Assembly (NCBI GenBank): GCA_017993055.1
Contig: JAGONM010000026.1
Span: forward strand, 1 to 37,717
Length of the DNA stretch: 37,717 bases
Direction of reading: 5' to 3'
From: Armatimonadota bacterium
GTDB taxonomy: Bacteria > Armatimonadota > UBA5829 > DTJY01
The notes below the pieces were generated by a model. That model was given only the letters and a program-made list of their open reading frames with translations, was not told the origin of the DNA and did not search any database. Of this stretch, positions 1 through 26,947 are shown piece by piece. Both the position numbers and the translations under genes were made by a program. How positions within the stretch are numbered: the stretch's first letter is position 1; the number at the start of each line of letters is the position of its first letter.

Positions 1-282
1 GTCACCGGCGGCATCGGCGTGAACAACATCGGCCTGCTGGTGAGCGTGGCAGGCAAGATCACGCACGACGACACCGGGTTCGCCTATGTTGACGACGGCT
101 CGCTCGTTCAGGACGGCTCCGGCTGGATCGGCGTCCGCGTGGACAAGACCGGCCTGACGGCCGCCTTCACCGAGGGCAAGCAGTGCGTCATAACCGGCGT
201 CAGCTCGATACTGAAGCAGGGCGAAGTCTACATACCCGTCCTGAGGCCGAGAAGCGACGCCGACGCGGTGATATATCCATAG
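1..282 (+). CDS. C-terminal part of a secreted protein with OB-fold-like module (5' end outside window)
   Basis: The reading frame is open from base 1 and ends at a TAG at 280-282, so only about 93 C-terminal residues are visible. They match, nearly motif for motif, the last ~90 residues of the proteins at 389-4012, 4537-7608 and 23918-26947: 'N.IGLLVSVAGKIT', then 'F.YVDDGS', 'DGSG..GVRVD', 'V.TGVSS' and a final 'VLRPR'. This is the second half of a tandem OB-fold-like module. The catalytic or binding part of the protein lies upstream of the window. The next gene starts 106 nt downstream on the same strand, with a GC-rich hairpin between. The family resemblance is seen in the sequence; the OB-fold label is an inference from the beta-strand pattern. 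Confidence 0.85.
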   Translation, partial: VTGGIGVNNIGLLVSVAGKITHDDTGFAYVDDGSLVQDGSGWIGVRVDKTGLTAAFTEGKQCVITGVSSILKQGEVYIPVLRPRSDADAVIYP

Positions 283-388: not shown

Positions 389-3300
389 ATGAGAAGACTC
401 GAAACACTGCTGTGCATCGGCCTGGCATGCCTGTGCGCGTTCGGGGCCGCGGCATCCGCCGACACGGTCGGCCTGCGGTTCTACCAACAGGACCAGTTGA
501 GGATAGTCCAGCGCGAAGTTCCGGCGGGCAAGAACCTCGTCGAGGCCGCAGTGCGCGGGCTCGTCGAAGGGCCTACCGTGGAGGAGAAGGTCCTCGGCTA
601 CACCTCGGCGATACCGTCGGGTACGAAGGTCGAGGGCGTGGCGCTGACCTCGGACGGCGTGGAGGTCGGGCTCTCCGCCCAAGTGCTCGCCGGGTTCGAC
701 GAGGCCGCGCTCCAGAGCATCTTCGACCAGTTCACCGCCACCCTGGGCGACTTCCCGAAGATCAGGCAGATCAAGCTCACGCGCCAGGGCAAGCCGCTGT
801 CCGACTATCTCGCGCCCGCCCCGGTCGTCGGGGAGGCCGCGCCGCCGCTCGTAGAGGGCGTCTCGACCAGCGGGCTCGCGACCAGGAAGATCGCCATCGG
901 CCCGTCCCACGGGCGCTTCTGGAACGGCTCCGGCTGGTACTGGCAGAGGGGCGACCCGTGCGGGTTCGGCGAGGCCGTGCTGGAGGACACGAACAGCATC
1001 CGGCTGATGCAGTTCCTGTACCAGTACCTGACTCAGGACGGCGCGGCCGTATACTCCGCCCGCGAGCTCAACGAGAGCAACTGCTGCAACAGCTACGAGG
1101 GCCTGCCCTGGTGGAAGATGGCGTCATACTCCTGGCTGAGAGGCCAGGGATACCCGTGCTCCGTCTGGGCCAGCTCGTCCGGCAACTGCGGCGCCGAGAC
1201 CGCCGTCGGGCGCAGCAGCGACGACATCCGCGCGAGGCCGCTCTTCGCCGACTACCACGGGACCGACATCTACATCGCCCACCACACCAACGCGGGCGGC
1301 GGGGGCACGGCGAACGGGACGGAGACCTTCCGCGACACCCAGATGGTCTATCAGGCGCACGTCGCAAACAGCCTGAACCTGGCCAACAAAGTGCAGAGCA
1401 GCGTCGTCAACACGATTCGCTCCACGTTCGACGGCGAGGACATGTGGTCCGACCGAGGCGTGAAGGACTCGGCGGGCGGGTTCGGCGAGATCCGCATACC
1501 GAACCGCCCGGCGATCCTGATCGAACTGGCGTTCCACGACGCCTGCTCGAGAGACGCCCAGTACCTGACCGACAACTTCTTCCGATCGCTCACCATGTGG
1601 GGCATCTACAAGGGCATCTGCGACTACTTCGGCACTACGCCCACCTGGGACAAGTACTCCCTGGAGTACGTCAGCGACACGCTCCCGGCGGCGATGGAGA
1701 CCGGGCACTCCTACAACGTGAGCATCACCTTCCGCAACCGGGGCGTGCTCTGGACCGAGGCCCGGCAGATCAGACTGGGGGCCGTCGGGGACTACGATCC
1801 GTTCACGCCTCAGACCAGGCAGATCATCAGCGGCGAGGTGCGCCCGGGCCAGACGTACACGTTCAACTTCACGCTCACCGCGCCGAACTCCGGCGGCACG
1901 TATACCACCGACTGGCGGATGGTGCGCGACGGCTACCAGTGGTTCGGCCCGACTGTCAGCAAGACCTACGAGGTGGTCGGCCCGCCGGACACCGAGGCCC
2001 CCTCCGTGCCGACGGGGCTCTTCGCGGAGTCGGTCGGCCTGAACCAGGTCAACATAAGCTGGAACGCCTCGACGGACAACGTCGGCGTCATCGGCTACAA
2101 GCTCTTCAGGGACGGCGTGCAGATAGCCGACCAGCCCGGCCGGACCTTCCAGGACGCGGGCCGCGCGGCTAACACCCAGTACTGCTACACGGTGCTCGCC
2201 TACGACGCTGTCAACAACCAGTCCGCCCAGAGCGCGCCGTACTGCGCGATCACGCACCAGGTGGTCTGGCAGGACGGCTTCTATGACCTGAACAACTGGC
2301 CCGCCGACAAGGTGGCAAACGGCACCTTCCGCGGCCTGGAGACGTTCGACTGGGACAGCCACGGGACCTACCCCGGCGATGTGTGCGTCGCCACTCTGAC
2401 CGGGACGACCTCCACCCAGGGGTCGTACGCGTACAGGGCGCTGGCGGAGACTTACGCCGCCGGGTCGTTCGACTGCTTCCTCGCGGACCAGGCGGTCTCG
2501 AGCAGCAAGCAGGGCCTCCACATCAGGGGGTTCAACGGATCGAACGAGGCCTACTCGGCCTTCGTGGGGTGCTACCCCGATTCGCCGATGAACGGCGCAA
2601 AGTACGCCGCGGGCGTGTTCGACGGCTCCTCGTGGAGCTGGGCGCCGCAGGTCCAGATCCGCGCGATCGGCTGGCTCAACCTCCGCGTCGAGGTGGGGGT
2701 GAACGCCGTCAGGGCCTACTACAACGGCAGCCTGATCGGCACCCTGCCGAAACCCGCCGCCGCGGACACCTTCGGGCTGACCCGCGTGAACCTCGGCCAC
2801 CCGTACAACGTGAACACCGAGGGGTACTTCGACGACGCGCAGTTCACCGCGCCGCCGCCCGTCGCGCCCCTCCCGCTGGCCGCGACGCCTCTCAGCACGG
2901 AGAGCATCCGGTGGAACTACGCCGACCGCTCGCCGATCGAGACGGGCTACCTGCTGCTCGACGGGTCTCAGGCGCAGAAGGGTTCCGCCGGGAAGAACTC
3001 GTCCTCCATAGCGGAGTCCGGCCTCGCCGCGAACACCCAGTACTCCCGCCTGCTCCGGGGCAGGAACGGCACGGTCCTCGGGCCGCTCTCGGCGGGGTTC
3101 TCGGCATACACGCTCTCCGTCGCGCCGACGAGCGCGAACGTCACCTGCGACAGGTCGCCCGGCACGCCCTACGCGACTCCCGAGTTCGTCTTCACGGCGG
3201 TCGGAGGGTTCGGCGCGGGGAAGGTGCAGTACTACCGGTACGCATGGGACCAGAGCCCGACCCACTCGTGGACAGGCTCCGAGGCCCAGTGGAGCGCCGG

Positions 3301-4012
3301 CACGCTCGACCTCTCCGCCGCCTCGCCGGGCGACTGGTACCTGCACGTGAAGGGCTTCAACGGCGACGGCGTGGAGAACGGCGCGCTGACCCTCGGGCCG
3401 TACCAGTACGAGGCGGCAACCTCGACGATCGCCGAGATCAAGGCCCTGCCGGACGGCTCATCGGCCGCGGTAGCGGGGAAGGTCGTGACGGCGAACTTCG
3501 GCTCGTTCTTCTACATCGAGGAGCCTGACGGCAGCTCGGGCATCAGGGTGAACGCGGGCGGGCCCGCTACCGGCGCGCTGGCGTCGGTCTCCGGCACGAT
3601 TCAGACCGTCGGCGGCGAGCGCGTGATAGCGAGCGCCTCGGTCGGCTCGTCCGGCACCGGAGCGATCCCGGCGGCCGCCCTGCTGAAGAACCTGTCGCTC
3701 GGCGGAGGAAGCCTGAACGCATACACCCCGGGCGTGATGGACGGCCTCGGGGCGAACAACCTCGGTCTCTTCGTGTCGGTCGCCGGCAGGGTGACGCACG
3801 TCGGGGCGGGGTTCTGCTACGTGGACGACGGCTCGATGCAGGCGCAGGACGGTTCGGGGTACCCGGGCGTCCGCGTGGATACGTCCTCGATAACCGCGCC
3901 CGCGATGGGGACTTACGCGGTGATCGAGGGCATCAGCTCGACGTACGCGATCGGCTCGGAGAACGTCCGGATGCTCCGCGCGACGGGGAAGGTGAGCTAC
4001 ACGCTGCCCTGA
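389..4012 (+). CDS. Secreted multidomain N-acetylmuramoyl-L-alanine amidase (amidase_3) with GerMN, Ig-like, FN3 and C-terminal OB module
   Basis: 1207 aa. A signal peptide spans about residues 1-24. A GerMN-like domain follows (about 26-140). An amidase_3 catalytic domain spans about 166-415, with likely zinc ligands His174 (in GPSHG), Glu199 and His299 (in AHHTNAG) and catalytic Glu379 (in LIELAF). This family cleaves the amide between MurNAc and the peptide stem. After it come an NBR1-type Ig-like domain (about 425-530), FN3 (about 535-622), a LamG/jelly-roll-like region, another FN3-like stretch and the tandem OB-like module (about 1012-1207). The catalytic set looks complete, although the HxNA loop has an extra His. 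GerMN plus amidase_3 is usually linked to cell-wall remodelling; here the large adhesive-type tail suggests an exported, surface-associated enzyme. AAGGAG at 369-374 and GAGG at 380-383 precede the ATG. The substrate could also be peptidoglycan of other cells. Confidence 0.88.
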   Translation: MRRLETLLCIGLACLCAFGAAASADTVGLRFYQQDQLRIVQREVPAGKNLVEAAVRGLVEGPTVEEKVLGYTSAIPSGTKVEGVALTSDGVEVGLSAQVLAGFDEAALQSIFDQFTATLGDFPKIRQIKLTRQGKPLSDYLAPAPVVGEAAPPLVEGVSTSGLATRKIAIGPSHGRFWNGSGWYWQRGDPCGFGEAVLEDTNSIRLMQFLYQYLTQDGAAVYSARELNESNCCNSYEGLPWWKMASYSWLRGQGYPCSVWASSSGNCGAETAVGRSSDDIRARPLFADYHGTDIYIAHHTNAGGGGTANGTETFRDTQMVYQAHVANSLNLANKVQSSVVNTIRSTFDGEDMWSDRGVKDSAGGFGEIRIPNRPAILIELAFHDACSRDAQYLTDNFFRSLTMWGIYKGICDYFGTTPTWDKYSLEYVSDTLPAAMETGHSYNVSITFRNRGVLWTEARQIRLGAVGDYDPFTPQTRQIISGEVRPGQTYTFNFTLTAPNSGGTYTTDWRMVRDGYQWFGPTVSKTYEVVGPPDTEAPSVPTGLFAESVGLNQVNISWNASTDNVGVIGYKLFRDGVQIADQPGRTFQDAGRAANTQYCYTVLAYDAVNNQSAQSAPYCAITHQVVWQDGFYDLNNWPADKVANGTFRGLETFDWDSHGTYPGDVCVATLTGTTSTQGSYAYRALAETYAAGSFDCFLADQAVSSSKQGLHIRGFNGSNEAYSAFVGCYPDSPMNGAKYAAGVFDGSSWSWAPQVQIRAIGWLNLRVEVGVNAVRAYYNGSLIGTLPKPAAADTFGLTRVNLGHPYNVNTEGYFDDAQFTAPPPVAPLPLAATPLSTESIRWNYADRSPIETGYLLLDGSQAQKGSAGKNSSSIAESGLAANTQYSRLLRGRNGTVLGPLSAGFSAYTLSVAPTSANVTCDRSPGTPYATPEFVFTAVGGFGAGKVQYYRYAWDQSPTHSWTGSEAQWSAGTLDLSAASPGDWYLHVKGFNGDGVENGALTLGPYQYEAATSTIAEIKALPDGSSAAVAGKVVTANFGSFFYIEEPDGSSGIRVNAGGPATGALASVSGTIQTVGGERVIASASVGSSGTGAIPAAALLKNLSLGGGSLNAYTPGVMDGLGANNLGLFVSVAGRVTHVGAGFCYVDDGSMQAQDGSGYPGVRVDTSSITAPAMGTYAVIEGISSTYAIGSENVRMLRATGKVSYTLP

Positions 4013-4536: not shown

Positions 4537-7500
4537 ATGTATACCCGAAGGGCGGTCCGCGCCTTGTTCACGGCACTCGCGGCGGCGCTGTGCCTCGCCT
4601 CGCTCGCCTCGGCCGACCGCATCGTCCAGAGCGACGACTTCGACGACGGGGACCTGACCGCCGGTCCGAGATGGACGTACGTCAAGCCCGGGTCCGCCGC
4701 CGTCAGCGGCGAGCAGAAGACCTCCGGCTCGTACAGCCTGAAGGTCGCGTCGAACAACGAGCTCGGCGCGGTACACACTTGCTCCGGCGTGAGGAGCGCC
4801 GACCAGCCGTTCACCAGCACGTTCAACCTTTACGTCGAGTCCATGGGTGACGAGGCGATCCCGTGGTCGGTCCAGAACGCGGACGCGGGTATCGCGGCGA
4901 TCATCTTCATCCTGCCGGGCGGCCTTGTCCAGTTGTACGTTCCCGGCTCCGGTTCCGGCGTGACGGTCAACCTGGCCCGGCATATCTCTTACGGCGCGTG
5001 GCACTCGTTCCGAGTCACCTACGACGGCCTCACGACGAACCTCTACCTCGACGGCAGCGCCGTACCCGACGCAAGCATCTCCCTCACTTACATGCGCGAG
5101 CCGTCGTACGTGTGCGTCGGCAACTTCGTCATGGCTCACACGAGCACGTTCTACGTGGACGACCTGGTCTTCACCAGGCCCGGAGACGTCGCGCCCGCGA
5201 AGATATACGTCCAGGTCTGCTCGGACACCTCGACCGGAGGGATCAACACCGCCGCCGAGCACATTGACTTTCCCGAGCTGGACACCACATACACGACCCC
5301 GGAAGGCCAGGCGGCGCGCGTCATGTCGGAGTCCTACCGCGACGCCCACCGCGACAGCCTCGGGAATACGATCAAGTTCACATGGTACATGCAGATGGGT
5401 TCGGTCTACTCCGCCGGGACCGACACCGGCCCGCTGCTTCCGTTTGAGCTGATGGAAGACTACCACGGCGGCTCGATCGAGCGCTGGGGCGACGAGATGG
5501 CCTATCACTACCACACATGGTTCTGGAGCGACCCGAACGGCGACGGCCTCTGGTACTGGAACCAGGCCCCGGACTTCAGTTACTGCAGGCCGGATTTCGA
5601 CCGCACCATGGCGCACATGCTGCTCGACCGGGGGTTCTACCCGTCTTCTTTCCGGAGCGGCTGGCACTACATGGACGACGGGTGGCAGAGCTACCTGGAC
5701 GAGCTTATCCCCTACCGCTTCGAGAACGACTGGCCGGCCTACCGCACCACCACCGAGGAGCCGCTCGGCAACCTCTACGACTGGCGGCGCGCCCCGTCCG
5801 CCTGGGTGCCCTGGCATCCCGACCCGAACGACTACCAGTCACCCGGCGCGCTCAGGGGCTGGGAATCGAGGAGCAAGTACATCGCCGGCGCGACGACAGC
5901 GATCCTCACCGAAGCATTCTACAAGGCGCTCGACGGCGAGGCGCAGCTCCTCACGCTCTTCTCCCACCTGAAAGAGGCGGACTTCCCCGAGCAGGTGGAC
6001 GCGCTGCACATCCGCCTGAGCGACCTGCACGCGAGCCTGCCGCTGGTGGATTTCGAGTACCTCACAGGCCGGGAGTGCATGCTGAAGTGGCGGAACGGCT
6101 CGGACGTCACCCCGCCGAACATCCAGGTCGAGACCGAGGACGCGGGTGGAATGCGCACGGCGACCATCACCTTCGACGAGCAGATCTACCAGCTCAGGCC
6201 GTTCGCCGCTCGCTCCGACGCCCAGGGGAACTACGAACTCATGGCCTGCGCCCTCGTCGGCCCGAACCGGTGGCGTGTCTCGTACGACGTCGCCGATACG
6301 GTGCAGGCGGCCGTCGGCGTGACCGACTGGTTCGGCAACCCGGCGGTGAGATTCCTGCCGACGCCGCTCCGGATCACGGACGCCGCCGCATCGAACGTCA
6401 TCACGACGGGCGCCGAGGTCCGCTGGAAGACGAACCGGCCGGCCGACACCCGCGTCGAGTATGAGAACGTATCGTCGCCGGGAGCAGCGTCCGCGCTCTT
6501 CGAGGCGGAGCGGAAGCTTGCGCACCGGGTGACTCTTGCCGGCCTGCTCCCCGGGCAGGTGTACAGAGTCCGGCTCTCCGCGCAGGACGAGAACGGCGGC
6601 GAGGCGGAATCCGAGGAACTCTACATACTGACTCCGGTGCTCGACGCCTTCATCATAGACAACCTCGACCCGGGGTTCAGCGTCGAGGGCGCCTGGTCAA
6701 CCGGAAGCGTGACCCCGGGGGCCTACGGCCCGGACTACCGCTACGCGAGCGCGAGCCCCTCAGGAACGTCCCGGGCGTACTGGACGTGGACCGCCCCCGC
6801 GGACGGCATCTACGACGTGCAGGCCAGATGGTCCGCCGGCGCGAACCGCTCTACGGCCGCGCGGTACTCAGTGATCATCGGCGGGAACGAGTACAACCGC
6901 ACGGTTGACCAGCAGGTGAACGGCGCCACGTGGAATGTTCTCGGCACGAACAGCCTTTCGCAGGGCGACACCGTGACCGTGAGGCTGACGAACGCGGCGG
7001 ACTCGGGGTTCGTGGTCATTGCCGACTCCGTCAGATTCGAGCCCGCCTACACGCCGGTCGAGAACATCGGGATCGCGAGGCTTCTCTCCGACGGCGAGAG
7101 CGTCCTCGTCACCGGCGCGGTGACCGGCGTCTTCGGCTCGCGGTTCTATGTCGAGGCGCTCGACCGGTCGTCCGCGGTCGAGGTGCAGGGATTGGGCGTC
7201 TCCGTTGGCGACGTCGTCGAAGTCGGGGGGACGCTCTCGACCGCCGCCGGCGAGCGCATGCTGATCGGCCGACACATCAAACCGACCGGCGAGACCGCCC
7301 ACCTTCGCCCCCTCGGAGTCGCCGGGAGGAGCCTGAACGACTGCGCTTCGGGAATACTCGTGAGAATCTGGGGCCGGGTGACCTCGGTGGGAAGCGGCTT
7401 CTTCTACGTGGATGACGGATCGGGGCTGACGGACTGCGCGGGCGGGATCGGGCTGAGGGTGGACTCCTCGCGCCTGACTTCGCCTCCCGCGCCGGATGAC

Positions 7501-7608
7501 CTCGCGGTCGCGACCGGCGTCCTATCGACGGAAACCCACGACTGCGGTGAGGTACGCGTGCTTCGACCCCGCGCGGACGACGATCTTCGCGCTTATCCCG
7601 GATACTAA
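4537..7608 (+). CDS. Large secreted protein: LamG-like, polysaccharide deacetylase-like, golvesin-like and tandem OB domains
   Basis: 1023 aa with a signal peptide (about 1-26). A concanavalin/LamG-like domain covers about 27-215. A central region (about 220-530) resembles NodB/glycoside hydrolase-deacetylase barrels, with an H-Y-H motif at His324/His326 in an 'DEMAYHYHTW' context and 'FRSGW' further on; this assignment is remote. An FN3-like segment (about 605-695) follows. A golvesin/Xly-type carbohydrate-binding beta-sandwich (about 700-835) comes next, recognisable by 'NLDPGFSVEG.W' and 'VIADSVRFEP'. The protein ends in the same tandem OB-like module as its neighbour (about 845-1023). It probably acts on extracellular polysaccharide. 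It has no PEP-CTERM or LPXTG signal even though its promoter is of the sigma-54 type used by the PEP-CTERM genes here. The function of the central domain is unproven. Confidence 0.8.
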   Translation: MYTRRAVRALFTALAAALCLASLASADRIVQSDDFDDGDLTAGPRWTYVKPGSAAVSGEQKTSGSYSLKVASNNELGAVHTCSGVRSADQPFTSTFNLYVESMGDEAIPWSVQNADAGIAAIIFILPGGLVQLYVPGSGSGVTVNLARHISYGAWHSFRVTYDGLTTNLYLDGSAVPDASISLTYMREPSYVCVGNFVMAHTSTFYVDDLVFTRPGDVAPAKIYVQVCSDTSTGGINTAAEHIDFPELDTTYTTPEGQAARVMSESYRDAHRDSLGNTIKFTWYMQMGSVYSAGTDTGPLLPFELMEDYHGGSIERWGDEMAYHYHTWFWSDPNGDGLWYWNQAPDFSYCRPDFDRTMAHMLLDRGFYPSSFRSGWHYMDDGWQSYLDELIPYRFENDWPAYRTTTEEPLGNLYDWRRAPSAWVPWHPDPNDYQSPGALRGWESRSKYIAGATTAILTEAFYKALDGEAQLLTLFSHLKEADFPEQVDALHIRLSDLHASLPLVDFEYLTGRECMLKWRNGSDVTPPNIQVETEDAGGMRTATITFDEQIYQLRPFAARSDAQGNYELMACALVGPNRWRVSYDVADTVQAAVGVTDWFGNPAVRFLPTPLRITDAAASNVITTGAEVRWKTNRPADTRVEYENVSSPGAASALFEAERKLAHRVTLAGLLPGQVYRVRLSAQDENGGEAESEELYILTPVLDAFIIDNLDPGFSVEGAWSTGSVTPGAYGPDYRYASASPSGTSRAYWTWTAPADGIYDVQARWSAGANRSTAARYSVIIGGNEYNRTVDQQVNGATWNVLGTNSLSQGDTVTVRLTNAADSGFVVIADSVRFEPAYTPVENIGIARLLSDGESVLVTGAVTGVFGSRFYVEALDRSSAVEVQGLGVSVGDVVEVGGTLSTAAGERMLIGRHIKPTGETAHLRPLGVAGRSLNDCASGILVRIWGRVTSVGSGFFYVDDGSGLTDCAGGIGLRVDSSRLTSPPAPDDLAVATGVLSTETHDCGEVRVLRPRADDDLRAYPGY

Positions 7609-23917: not shown

Positions 23918-26900
23918 ATGAAGCACGTGCGTTTGTGCCTTACCATTGCATTTATTCTTTCATTCATCTGCGGCGCGGGTTACGCTCAATACGACCTCGG
24001 CCAGCCGGTTCGCCTGGACACGCGACCGGTCACGGCGGGCTCGACCGGGTGGTTCCAGTCGAACCCGGCGATCGCAAGCTCCGGGACCATCTACCTGGCC
24101 GTCTGGGTGGATATGCGGGATGCCGGGCGTCCGTCGGACCTCTATGCCGCCCGCATCGCCGACGACGGGACCGTCCTCGACCCGCTGGGTATCAGGCTCA
24201 CCACGAACGCCTCCGTCGCCGGCAGGCCCGACGTCTGCTGGAACGGCGAGAGCTTCTTCATAGTCTACGCGGGCAACTCAGGGGTCGTGGGGACGCGCAT
24301 TCTGAGCCTCAGGGTCTCGCCCAACGGAGCGGTGTTGGATCAGCAGCCCGTGGTTGTCTGTGACAGCGGCCAGCCGCGCAATCCGCGGACGGCGTGGAAC
24401 GGTACGCATCACACGGTAGCGTGGATAGGCGACACTGAGAGCCCCGCGAGTTACGGCGGGGTATTCAGCCGAACGGTCAGTCTCGGCGGAACCGTCTCCG
24501 GGACCGTCAACACCGTTTGCGCCGGGGCCGTGACGAGCGATCTGGGCGCGAGCAACGTGGCGATCGCGTCGGCCTTCTACGGACCGACCCTGGTGGTATG
24601 GGCGGACGAACGGAATTCGGCCGACACCTCGACCGATCTCTACGGGCGAATCGTAGGCGCAGACTCCGACTTCCCGATCTCCACGGACGCCGGAGCGCAG
24701 GATCAACCGCACGCATGTTACACGAGCGAGCAGTTCATGGTGGTTTGGACGAGCAGGCAGCAGTCCTACAGCTTCATAATGGCCAGGCGCGTCACGACAA
24801 GGGGCACACTGCCCGATCCGTTCAGTACCATCATCAGCGCCGCCACTGAGCGGCAGTTCGATCCGCAGGTCGCGGCGGAGGGCAACAGCCAGCGGGGGCT
24901 GGTCACGTGGACGCGGAAGGCCGGTCTCGGGCAGCTCGACATCTACGCCGGACGCGTCGGGTTCGACGGCGCGGCGCTCGACGGGGCCGGTTTCCCGGTC
25001 TGCGCGGAGAGCGATCGGCAGATCAGGCCGTGCGTCGGGTCTGCCGCCGCCGGCTACCTTGTCTGCTGGATGGATTCGAGGAACGACGCGGGTCCCACGG
25101 TGCCGGGCTTCGGCTTCCAGGTCCGGGGCAGGCGGGTCGAATCCACCGGAACCCCCGCCGGAAGCGAGTTCCCGCTGACGCGCTCGGCTCCCCAGCACAA
25201 GGCGTCGTGCTCGGCCTACAGCGGACGGGAGTTCCTAGTCTGCTGGGAGGAGTGGACCGATGCGGGCCGGACACTCTACGGCGAGGTGCTGAACGCCTAT
25301 GCCGGTTCGCCCGTCACCGCCCCGACGCCCTTCGCGATCGCTCAGGTCGCGGTCGAGCACCCATATCCGGCGGCGGCCTGGAACGGCGAGAACTTCGTCG
25401 TCATTTGGCTCGACGGCGGTGAGTTGTCGCCCGGAGTCGTCGGCCCGAACAAGGTGATGGCCGCGCGCATATCCCGCGCCGGCACGGTCCTCGATCCCGC
25501 GGGCATCGTGGTTTATGACGGCGGCGCGACCTCGATCCGCGTCAGGCCCGCGGTTGCGTCGGACGGCAATCGCTGTCTCGTCGCGTTTCGACCCGGGAAT
25601 TGGTTCTATGGGTACGTGGGTGACGTCAACGGGGTACTGCTCTCCCGCGACGGCGCACTCTCCCCCGCCGTCCTCGTGGGCACGTCGAGGAGCCGCTCCG
25701 TCCACGAAGGACTCGCCGCCTGCTGGACCGGCCAGCGCTACATCGTTGCCTGGAAGCGGGCCCTGGACATCAGGAATCCTCCACCGTACACTCTCGGCGG
25801 TATAGACTATGCCACCGTAACCGCCGACGGAGTGCCTTCTGGGGTCCGCAGCATCACCGACGAGACGTGCCCGGACTACTTCAAGCTCGCCTGCAGCGGC
25901 GGGAATGTGCTCCTGGCAGCCTACGGACCGGAGATCGTCACCCGGAGGTTTTCTCTGACCGGCAATCTGCTGGATACGACGCCTCTGATCATCCCGCAGT
26001 CCGCCGGTGCCGACTCCGTGAACGTCGCGTGGAACGGCGCGGACTACATCATTACATGGCTGTCCGGCAAAGAGAACGCCGCGAGCGCTCAGCCCTGGCA
26101 GGACGACATGGTGGCCGCGCGGGTCAACTACTTCAACCAGCTCGTAGATACCGTGCCCATCTCGGTAACGGATACTCCCTTGTCGGAACTCGGCGGCTCG
26201 ATGTGCGCCGGACCTCCGGGCCGCGTCTTCCTCGCGTATTCGAACTCGGACGGCCCGCCGTACCGGTCCACGCGGGCGAAGGGGCTCTTCCTCGACGCCT
26301 GGTTGACGGTGAGCAGCATCGGGCAGATCGGCCGGCTCTACGAAGGCGCCCGCGTCAACGTTCCCGGCGAGGTGGTGACCGCACTGTTCCCAATGTACTT
26401 CCGTGATACCGACGGCCACTCCCGTATATACGACCGCTTCTATATTCAGGAAGGCCGCTCGTTCGGCATAGGGGTCAAGTCTCCCCGCAGCGAAGGTTCG
26501 CCGGTTGCCGGCAACGCGGTCTCGTTCAGCGGCAGGCTGAAAAAGATCAACGGCGAGGCCACGATAGAATCATCCGATGTCAACGTCATCAGCACATCGA
26601 ATCCCTTGCCGGCCCCGATCGGCATGACCTGCCGCAATCTCGGCGGCGTCGGTCCGACCTCGGCGTTCACCAGCGTTGACGGCGCGCTCGGTCTCTACAA
26701 CGTCGGCCTGCTCGTGAAGACCTGGGGCAGGGTGACGAGCGTCGAAGGCGATACCTTCTACCTCGACGACGGCTTGAACGTGCCCATAGATCAATGGCGA
26801 GTCGGCGTGAAGGTCTACGGGACGGCCCCGCCTTCGCCCTATGCCGAGGTGACCGGGATATCGGGGTCCGAGACCTTTGGCGACAAGATCATCCGGGTCA

Positions 26901-26947
26901 TCCGCGCGACCGACGTGCGGGGGATCAGTGACCCGCCGCTCCGGTGA
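23918..26947 (+). CDS. Large secreted beta-propeller-like protein with C-terminal tandem OB module
   Basis: 1009 aa. Signal peptide about 1-24. Residues ~25-780 are built from repeats of the type 'P..AWNG..F.V.W.D.R....D.YA.R....G..LDP.GI', which indicates one or two beta-propellers of the sialidase/WD40-like kind. No Asp-box enzyme site was recognised. The last ~200 residues are the tandem OB-like module: first half 'GQIGRLYEGARVNVPGEVVT' with 'FYIQEGRS.GIGVKS', second half 'NVGLLVKTWGRVTSVEGDTF' with 'YLDDGL' and 'GVKVYG'. It is probably a surface or extracellular binding protein. GGAAAGGAGGG precedes the ATG at 23918; an in-frame extension to 23855 overlaps the upstream gene and is rejected. 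It is likely the second gene of the 23184 operon. Confidence 0.85.
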   Translation: MKHVRLCLTIAFILSFICGAGYAQYDLGQPVRLDTRPVTAGSTGWFQSNPAIASSGTIYLAVWVDMRDAGRPSDLYAARIADDGTVLDPLGIRLTTNASVAGRPDVCWNGESFFIVYAGNSGVVGTRILSLRVSPNGAVLDQQPVVVCDSGQPRNPRTAWNGTHHTVAWIGDTESPASYGGVFSRTVSLGGTVSGTVNTVCAGAVTSDLGASNVAIASAFYGPTLVVWADERNSADTSTDLYGRIVGADSDFPISTDAGAQDQPHACYTSEQFMVVWTSRQQSYSFIMARRVTTRGTLPDPFSTIISAATERQFDPQVAAEGNSQRGLVTWTRKAGLGQLDIYAGRVGFDGAALDGAGFPVCAESDRQIRPCVGSAAAGYLVCWMDSRNDAGPTVPGFGFQVRGRRVESTGTPAGSEFPLTRSAPQHKASCSAYSGREFLVCWEEWTDAGRTLYGEVLNAYAGSPVTAPTPFAIAQVAVEHPYPAAAWNGENFVVIWLDGGELSPGVVGPNKVMAARISRAGTVLDPAGIVVYDGGATSIRVRPAVASDGNRCLVAFRPGNWFYGYVGDVNGVLLSRDGALSPAVLVGTSRSRSVHEGLAACWTGQRYIVAWKRALDIRNPPPYTLGGIDYATVTADGVPSGVRSITDETCPDYFKLACSGGNVLLAAYGPEIVTRRFSLTGNLLDTTPLIIPQSAGADSVNVAWNGADYIITWLSGKENAASAQPWQDDMVAARVNYFNQLVDTVPISVTDTPLSELGGSMCAGPPGRVFLAYSNSDGPPYRSTRAKGLFLDAWLTVSSIGQIGRLYEGARVNVPGEVVTALFPMYFRDTDGHSRIYDRFYIQEGRSFGIGVKSPRSEGSPVAGNAVSFSGRLKKINGEATIESSDVNVISTSNPLPAPIGMTCRNLGGVGPTSAFTSVDGALGLYNVGLLVKTWGRVTSVEGDTFYLDDGLNVPIDQWRVGVKVYGTAPPSPYAEVTGISGSETFGDKIIRVIRATDVRGISDPPLR

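Follow-up and report, generated by a model that had tools for sequence, protein, structure and literature searches.

Four proteins encoded on one contig of an Armatimonadota genome end in homologous tails of about 200 residues, and these tails represent a paired OB module that recurs dozens of times in the same genome, mostly at the C-terminus of secreted proteins. As far as sequence profiles can tell, the module appears to be a domain family missed by current annotation. We propose, with slightly less than even confidence, that it is a non-catalytic, acidic two-OB attachment unit that docks exoenzymes and adhesins onto the cell's own extracellular layer, likely an EPS/PEP-CTERM matrix.

The window, meaning the whole stretch of DNA analyzed here, spans positions 1-37717 of contig C26, in a 3.72-Mb genome that is 99.6% complete. 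The carriers and their modules are located as follows.

389..4012, + strand: CDS P0001, with signal peptide, Germane, Amidase_3, Ig-like and fn3-like domains and a C-terminal paired OB module (Pfam PF10646, PF01520, PF16158)
Signal peptide of P0001, called by heuristic: MRRLETLLCIGLACLCAFGAAA
about 3404..4009, + strand: paired OB module of P0001 (aa 1006-1207), by homology (HMM E 1e-65) and AlphaFold2 (pLDDT 92.9, pTM 0.89)
3428..3685, + strand: first OB barrel of P0001, HIN/RMI2/YgiW-like (model strands E20-E94; VIA Z 11.1 to 5yzp and 9.8 to 1nnx, residues 3-85)
3764..4000, + strand: second OB barrel of P0001, RPA14 / MCM-N / tRNA-synthetase anticodon-binding-like (model strands E123-E199; VIA Z 10.6 to 8aas_C, residues 88-202)
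4537..7608, + strand: CDS P0002, with signal peptide, LamG-like, fn3 and Golvesin_C domains and a C-terminal paired OB module (Pfam PF25275, PF00041, PF13385)
7036..7605, + strand: paired OB module of P0002, by homology and HMM
23918..26947, + strand: CDS P0003, with signal peptide, a region first annotated as a beta-propeller (no Pfam match) and a C-terminal paired OB module
26294..26944, + strand: paired OB module of P0003, by homology and HMM
1..282, + strand: fourth copy, second OB half only, cut at the contig start; its N-terminal part is probably on contig C10 (amidase paralogue of P0001)

The first-pass annotation had described a tail shared by four secreted proteins that are otherwise unrelated. 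The shared tail is borne out, with pairwise BLASTP E values between 7e-23 and 2e-6 (P0001/P0002 7e-23, P0001/P0004 5e-20, P0001/P0003 3e-15, P0002/P0003 6e-9). The claim that the upstream parts are unrelated stands for the carriers at large, which are diverse (37 Pfam families upstream of the module at E <= 1e-5), but it needs amending within the window. Bases 1-127 overlap exactly, over all 127 positions, with the open left end of contig C10. This contig encodes an amidase-type protein of 1173 aa that shares 59% identity with P0001 across 1174 aa. The overlap is probably an assembly-graph break within recent amidase paralogues, and the protein at 1-282 carries the second OB half alone because the contig begins there. 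Two of the four window proteins are thus probably paralogous amidases, which leaves three architectures instead of four. Beyond the window, an HMM built from the three complete window tails gave 63 matches in the genome, and iteration of the HMM settled on 62 proteins. The copies are mostly ~30-40% identical to that of P0001, and related sequences on named contigs come mostly from Armatimonadota MAGs.

The two-part organization noted at first reading corresponds, in the predicted structure, to two OB folds. The AlphaFold2 model of the P0001 module places two OB barrels at residues ~9-94 and 121-199, each a closed five-stranded barrel that qualifies it for the OB-fold superfamily, and either half aligns to solved OB domains with a Z score of 10-11 in a VIA fold search. 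Among the structures listed by the fold searches, none covered both barrels well. An hhalign comparison shows the two halves to be homologues (95.8%), and the unit therefore probably arose through duplication of a single OB domain. A single-OB form of the tail also exists: the proteins at L094:3457-3705, L095:4939-5193 and L093:939-1190 end with the first OB half alone.

Comparison with existing domains supports the suggestion that the module is undescribed. No Pfam or NCBIfam family model covers the paired module, the first window tail has zero matches in either collection, and a literature search of incomplete coverage found no description of such a module. Sequence profiles gave only weak OB-clan matches, to BOF/YgiW, tRNA_anti-codon, RPA14 and the OB domain of an extracellular nuclease. 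Membership in the BOF, tRNA_anti-codon or ExeM/NucH families is not indicated by these matches, which involve single or few copies with best E values of 3e-4 and 2e-3 among 53 copies. By fold and by remote sequence similarity, the module's nearest neighbors are mostly nucleic-acid-binding OB domains (RPA14, MCM, HIN, extracellular EEP nuclease), and one could imagine the module holding secreted proteins in an extracellular DNA matrix, as OB folds of the RPA, HIN or extracellular-nuclease type might do. The OB entries of the PDB are, however, mostly nucleic-acid proteins, so that the nearest matches say little about the ligand. The modules are moreover acidic, with a median pI of 5.15 and a median net charge of -3.5 (9 of 56 lie above pI 7), and for this reason we consider nucleic-acid binding improbable.

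The distribution of the module was examined across the phylum and the window's class in a genome collection, with a query made from four close copies. Matches were found in 42 of 291 Armatimonadota genomes, 24 of them in the window's class; the other 18 have one or two matches each, and large arrays are confined to this one class. The collection holds 28 genomes of the class: 24 carry 22-102 copies and four carry none, namely G001, from the window's own family, and G010, G013 and G025, which form one genus of another family. On a FastTree tree of low support, the copies of G000 and G005 interleave, with 27 label changes compared with 41 for shuffled labels. Within-genome homogenization of the modules was accordingly not found in these two genomes, though copies do cluster by genome beyond what shuffled labels give. 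The interleaving implies that the multi-copy repertoire is older than the split of the two families, and the four zero-copy genomes have therefore most likely lost the module, in at least two events.

Such a pattern bears on the idea that the module has no common ligand at all, and is a stable C-terminal cap or dimerization domain spread through duplication and shuffling. Conservation falls mostly on structural OB residues, and a sequence identity of just ~30-40% between copies would be in keeping with a cap. The maintenance of 22-102 copies in 24 genomes of several families, together with their coordinated total absence from four, suggests a shared function instead, and we regard the cap as a poor candidate.

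The early suggestion that the module might co-occur with a specific membrane enzyme found its counterpart in exosortase. PEP-CTERM/EpsH is an EPS-associated sorting system (Haft 2006, PMC1569441) whose tag of ~24 residues lies at the extreme C-terminus of its substrates (PMC1569441). Class-wide, exosortase (PF09721) and PEP-CTERM (PF07589) follow the module: the 24 genomes that have it have both, and the four without it have neither (24/24 versus 0/4). The exosortase gene of the window's genome belongs to an EPS locus that also includes Wza-like, Wzc-like, sugar-transferase, flippase and Wzy-like genes. G005, from a family other than the window's, has a complete genome on a single contig; in it, a PEP-CTERM gene and an OB-module gene that are mutually adjacent adjoin a Wzc-Wza-exosortase-DUF3485 operon (L184:2-9655). 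Genome-wide in G005, genes of the two systems lie side by side more often than chance predicts, though the signal is weak: based on 13 listed PEP-CTERM positions (12 loci), four of the 12 loci lie <=2.5 kb from a module gene (rotation p 0.02), with p 0.08 at 4 kb. Outside the class, genomes G028-G030 have exosortase and PEP-CTERM and no OB array.

What the zero-copy genomes lack goes well beyond these two systems. They hold 1, 0, 0 and 0 fn3 domains, compared with 8-54 in the seven positive genomes of the class that were checked. All four still have Poly_export and three still have secretin, so export as such was not lost. The shared loss spans the whole exoprotein program, and the exosortase link is a correlation within this broader loss. 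Since the loss is this wide and comprises two independent events, dependence of the module on exosortase cannot be shown from it; a lifestyle change that shed the entire exoprotein program accounts for the co-loss equally well. Orthologues that had lost just the tail would have offered a natural experiment, which failed: none of the four genomes has any relative of P0001. Devoid of the OB module, exosortase and PEP-CTERM, and with hardly any fn3 domains left, G001, G010, G013 and G025 are natural cases of a lost exoprotein program.

The carriers are secreted proteins, as first supposed: a home-made heuristic called a signal peptide in 51 of 53 complete carriers, compared with 38 of 139 module-free genes of the same regions, and five carriers might be lipoproteins. 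The families found upstream include fn3, carboxypeptidase-regulatory-like, Amidase_3, GHL10, Golvesin_C, S8 and C1 peptidases, metallophosphatases and beta-helices. Many carriers are hydrolases or glycosidase-like proteins, which would suit a CBM-like substrate-binding module that targets enzymes to external polymers, such as plant or microbial glycans or other cells, and has no relation to the producer's own surface layer. Internal and triple tandem copies, described below, are placed as binding modules typically are, and the interleaving of copies from two families (the 27 label changes) fits the old, diversified repertoire that this reading would imply. On the other hand, a single module type sits on carriers as unlike in substrate as cell-wall amidases, peptidases, phosphatases and structural-repeat proteins, which argues for a common destination over a common substrate, and neither a strong C-terminal bias nor the exact match with exosortase is expected of CBMs. 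We therefore judge a CBM-like role somewhat unlikely, although it deserves more weight than the other alternatives considered here.

The constant C-terminus of the first-pass annotation proved to be a strong bias but not a rule. In the window's genome, 44 of the 60 copies whose 3' end is known finish <=6 residues from the stop codon, where uniform placement expects 0.67, and the remaining 16 are internal. In G005, 58 of 68 copies end <=12 residues from the stop, four more <=26, and six are internal. Some proteins, among them L087, carry three copies in tandem, which suggests multivalent binding, and by eye some internal copies precede GH3-like, glycosidase-like or PQQ-propeller-like domains. 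Four genomes of other Armatimonadota classes have the full paired module as one internal copy. Frequent placement in mid-protein, named at the outset as an argument against a localization module, is therefore in part what we observe.

In nine of the internal-copy proteins of the window's genome, the OB module is followed by a second, unrelated C-terminal module of ~195 aa with the motif WNL...GDGYW...GHP...GYWWD...HGYW...DLALIVP. There are 21 copies of it in this genome, for example at L076:1978-2553 (- strand), L041:5497-6123 (+ strand) and L039:5069-5707 (+ strand), and 15 in G002; in L186 and L187, from other classes, it likewise comes after the one internal OB copy. We tested this second module as an alternative determinant and set it aside: three of the four zero-copy genomes still have it, and it is not linked to the OB module. 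The C-termini of L187 and L185, which have a single OB copy and also come from other classes, show an apparent dockerin-type repeat by eye.

These positions weigh on whether the module acts as a genuine C-terminal domain for sorting or secretion, recognized by an outer-membrane translocon or a transpeptidase and then removed, in the manner of the T9SS C-terminal domain. The module is a beta fold that ends tens of proteins with signal peptides, its distribution in the class is all-or-none, and it co-occurs with a transpeptidase-like membrane enzyme, all of which such a domain would show. The absence of known tail signals, already noted for the window proteins, nevertheless extends in part to the wider set. 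The window carriers have no PF07589 match, as PEP-CTERM substrates would, and no Por_Secre_tail match; no Por_Secre_tail-type match was found among 53 copies either, and the internal and triple tandem copies also set the module apart from T9SS tails. None of the 62 carriers has a C-terminal segment of transmembrane hydrophobicity (maximum 1.52, Kyte-Doolittle, 18 residues), so that the hydrophobic helix of an LPXTG sortase substrate is missing as well. With about a quarter of the copies internal, triple tandems present and no membrane helix in the tails, the module is unlikely to be a sorting signal that is processed off; given single internal copies in other classes as well, we give the sorting-domain reading little credence.

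Of the two functions first envisaged, localization or glycan binding, the form of a strict sorting signal is unsupported, given the internal copies, the tandem triples and the copies before catalytic domains, but a docking or binding module fits better. The attachment unit that we favor would be carried in common by exported enzymes and adhesins and would dock them onto the producer's own extracellular layer, most likely the exopolysaccharide or PEP-CTERM protein matrix that the exosortase locus helps to produce. Retention would be non-covalent, with the module kept on the mature protein. The fold, secretion, placement, carriers and distribution are computational results, and we infer binding as such, an EPS or PEP-CTERM receptor and non-covalent retention; no conserved binding-site signature or ligand was identified, and the most conserved residues look structural.

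In a more ambitious version, which we think rather unlikely, the module would belong to a new surface-retention system of one Armatimonadota class, in which the OB-tailed proteins (22-102 per genome) would be clients that dock onto a receptor or polysaccharide of the exosortase/PEP-CTERM layer, with exosortase substrates as the scaffold, an OB-fold counterpart of the cellulosome. If the exosortase link is functional, the OB-tailed proteins would make up a layer of clients resting on the PEP-CTERM matrix. The module offers a testable handle on how a mostly uncultured bacterial class organizes 20-100 secreted enzymes and adhesins per genome, and, once named, the domain family could help to predict extracellular proteins.

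Among known OB families, BOF (PF04076; YgiW/YdeI) and tRNA_anti-codon (PF01336) have the five-stranded OB barrel in common with the module halves. They are weakly matched by 8 and 5 of the 53 copies respectively (best E 3e-4), and YgiW (1nnx) is also a fold match of the module (Z 9.8). Both are single domains, whereas the module consists of two fused OB folds used as a tail on large exoproteins, and neither gives a strong match. The OB domain of extracellular nucleases (ExeM/NucH type; PDB 9sf8) is likewise secreted and has a profile match over the first half of the module (E 0.008), and one copy matches NF033681 (E 0.0017). Unlike it, the module is paired, mostly C-terminal and found on dozens of unrelated carriers, with the nuclease domain unmatched among the listed carrier families.

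Among systems that mark exoproteins, PEP-CTERM/exosortase resembles the module in giving tens of signal-peptide proteins a common C-terminus, in its tie to EPS loci and EpsH, and in occupying the same 24 genomes. The PEP-CTERM tag is nevertheless short, includes a membrane helix and is confined to the C-terminus, whereas the OB module is a soluble domain of 200 residues that can be internal or in tandem. The T9SS C-terminal domain is, like the module, a folded beta domain that ends many exoproteins; the OB module differs in not being strictly C-terminal, in matching none of the Pfam/NCBIfam models for it and in belonging to a different phylum. The closest likeness in use, from general knowledge, is to dockerins, repeated non-catalytic modules that lie mostly at the C-terminus of tens of unrelated cellulosomal exoenzymes per genome. 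Dockerins consist of calcium-binding EF-hand-like repeats, whereas the module consists of OB folds, and no cohesin-like scaffold was identified. The resemblance, that of a non-catalytic and mostly terminal module on many unrelated exoenzymes, is one of use and not of family membership: by analogy, the paired OB module may work like a dockerin or a CBM without being assigned to either family.
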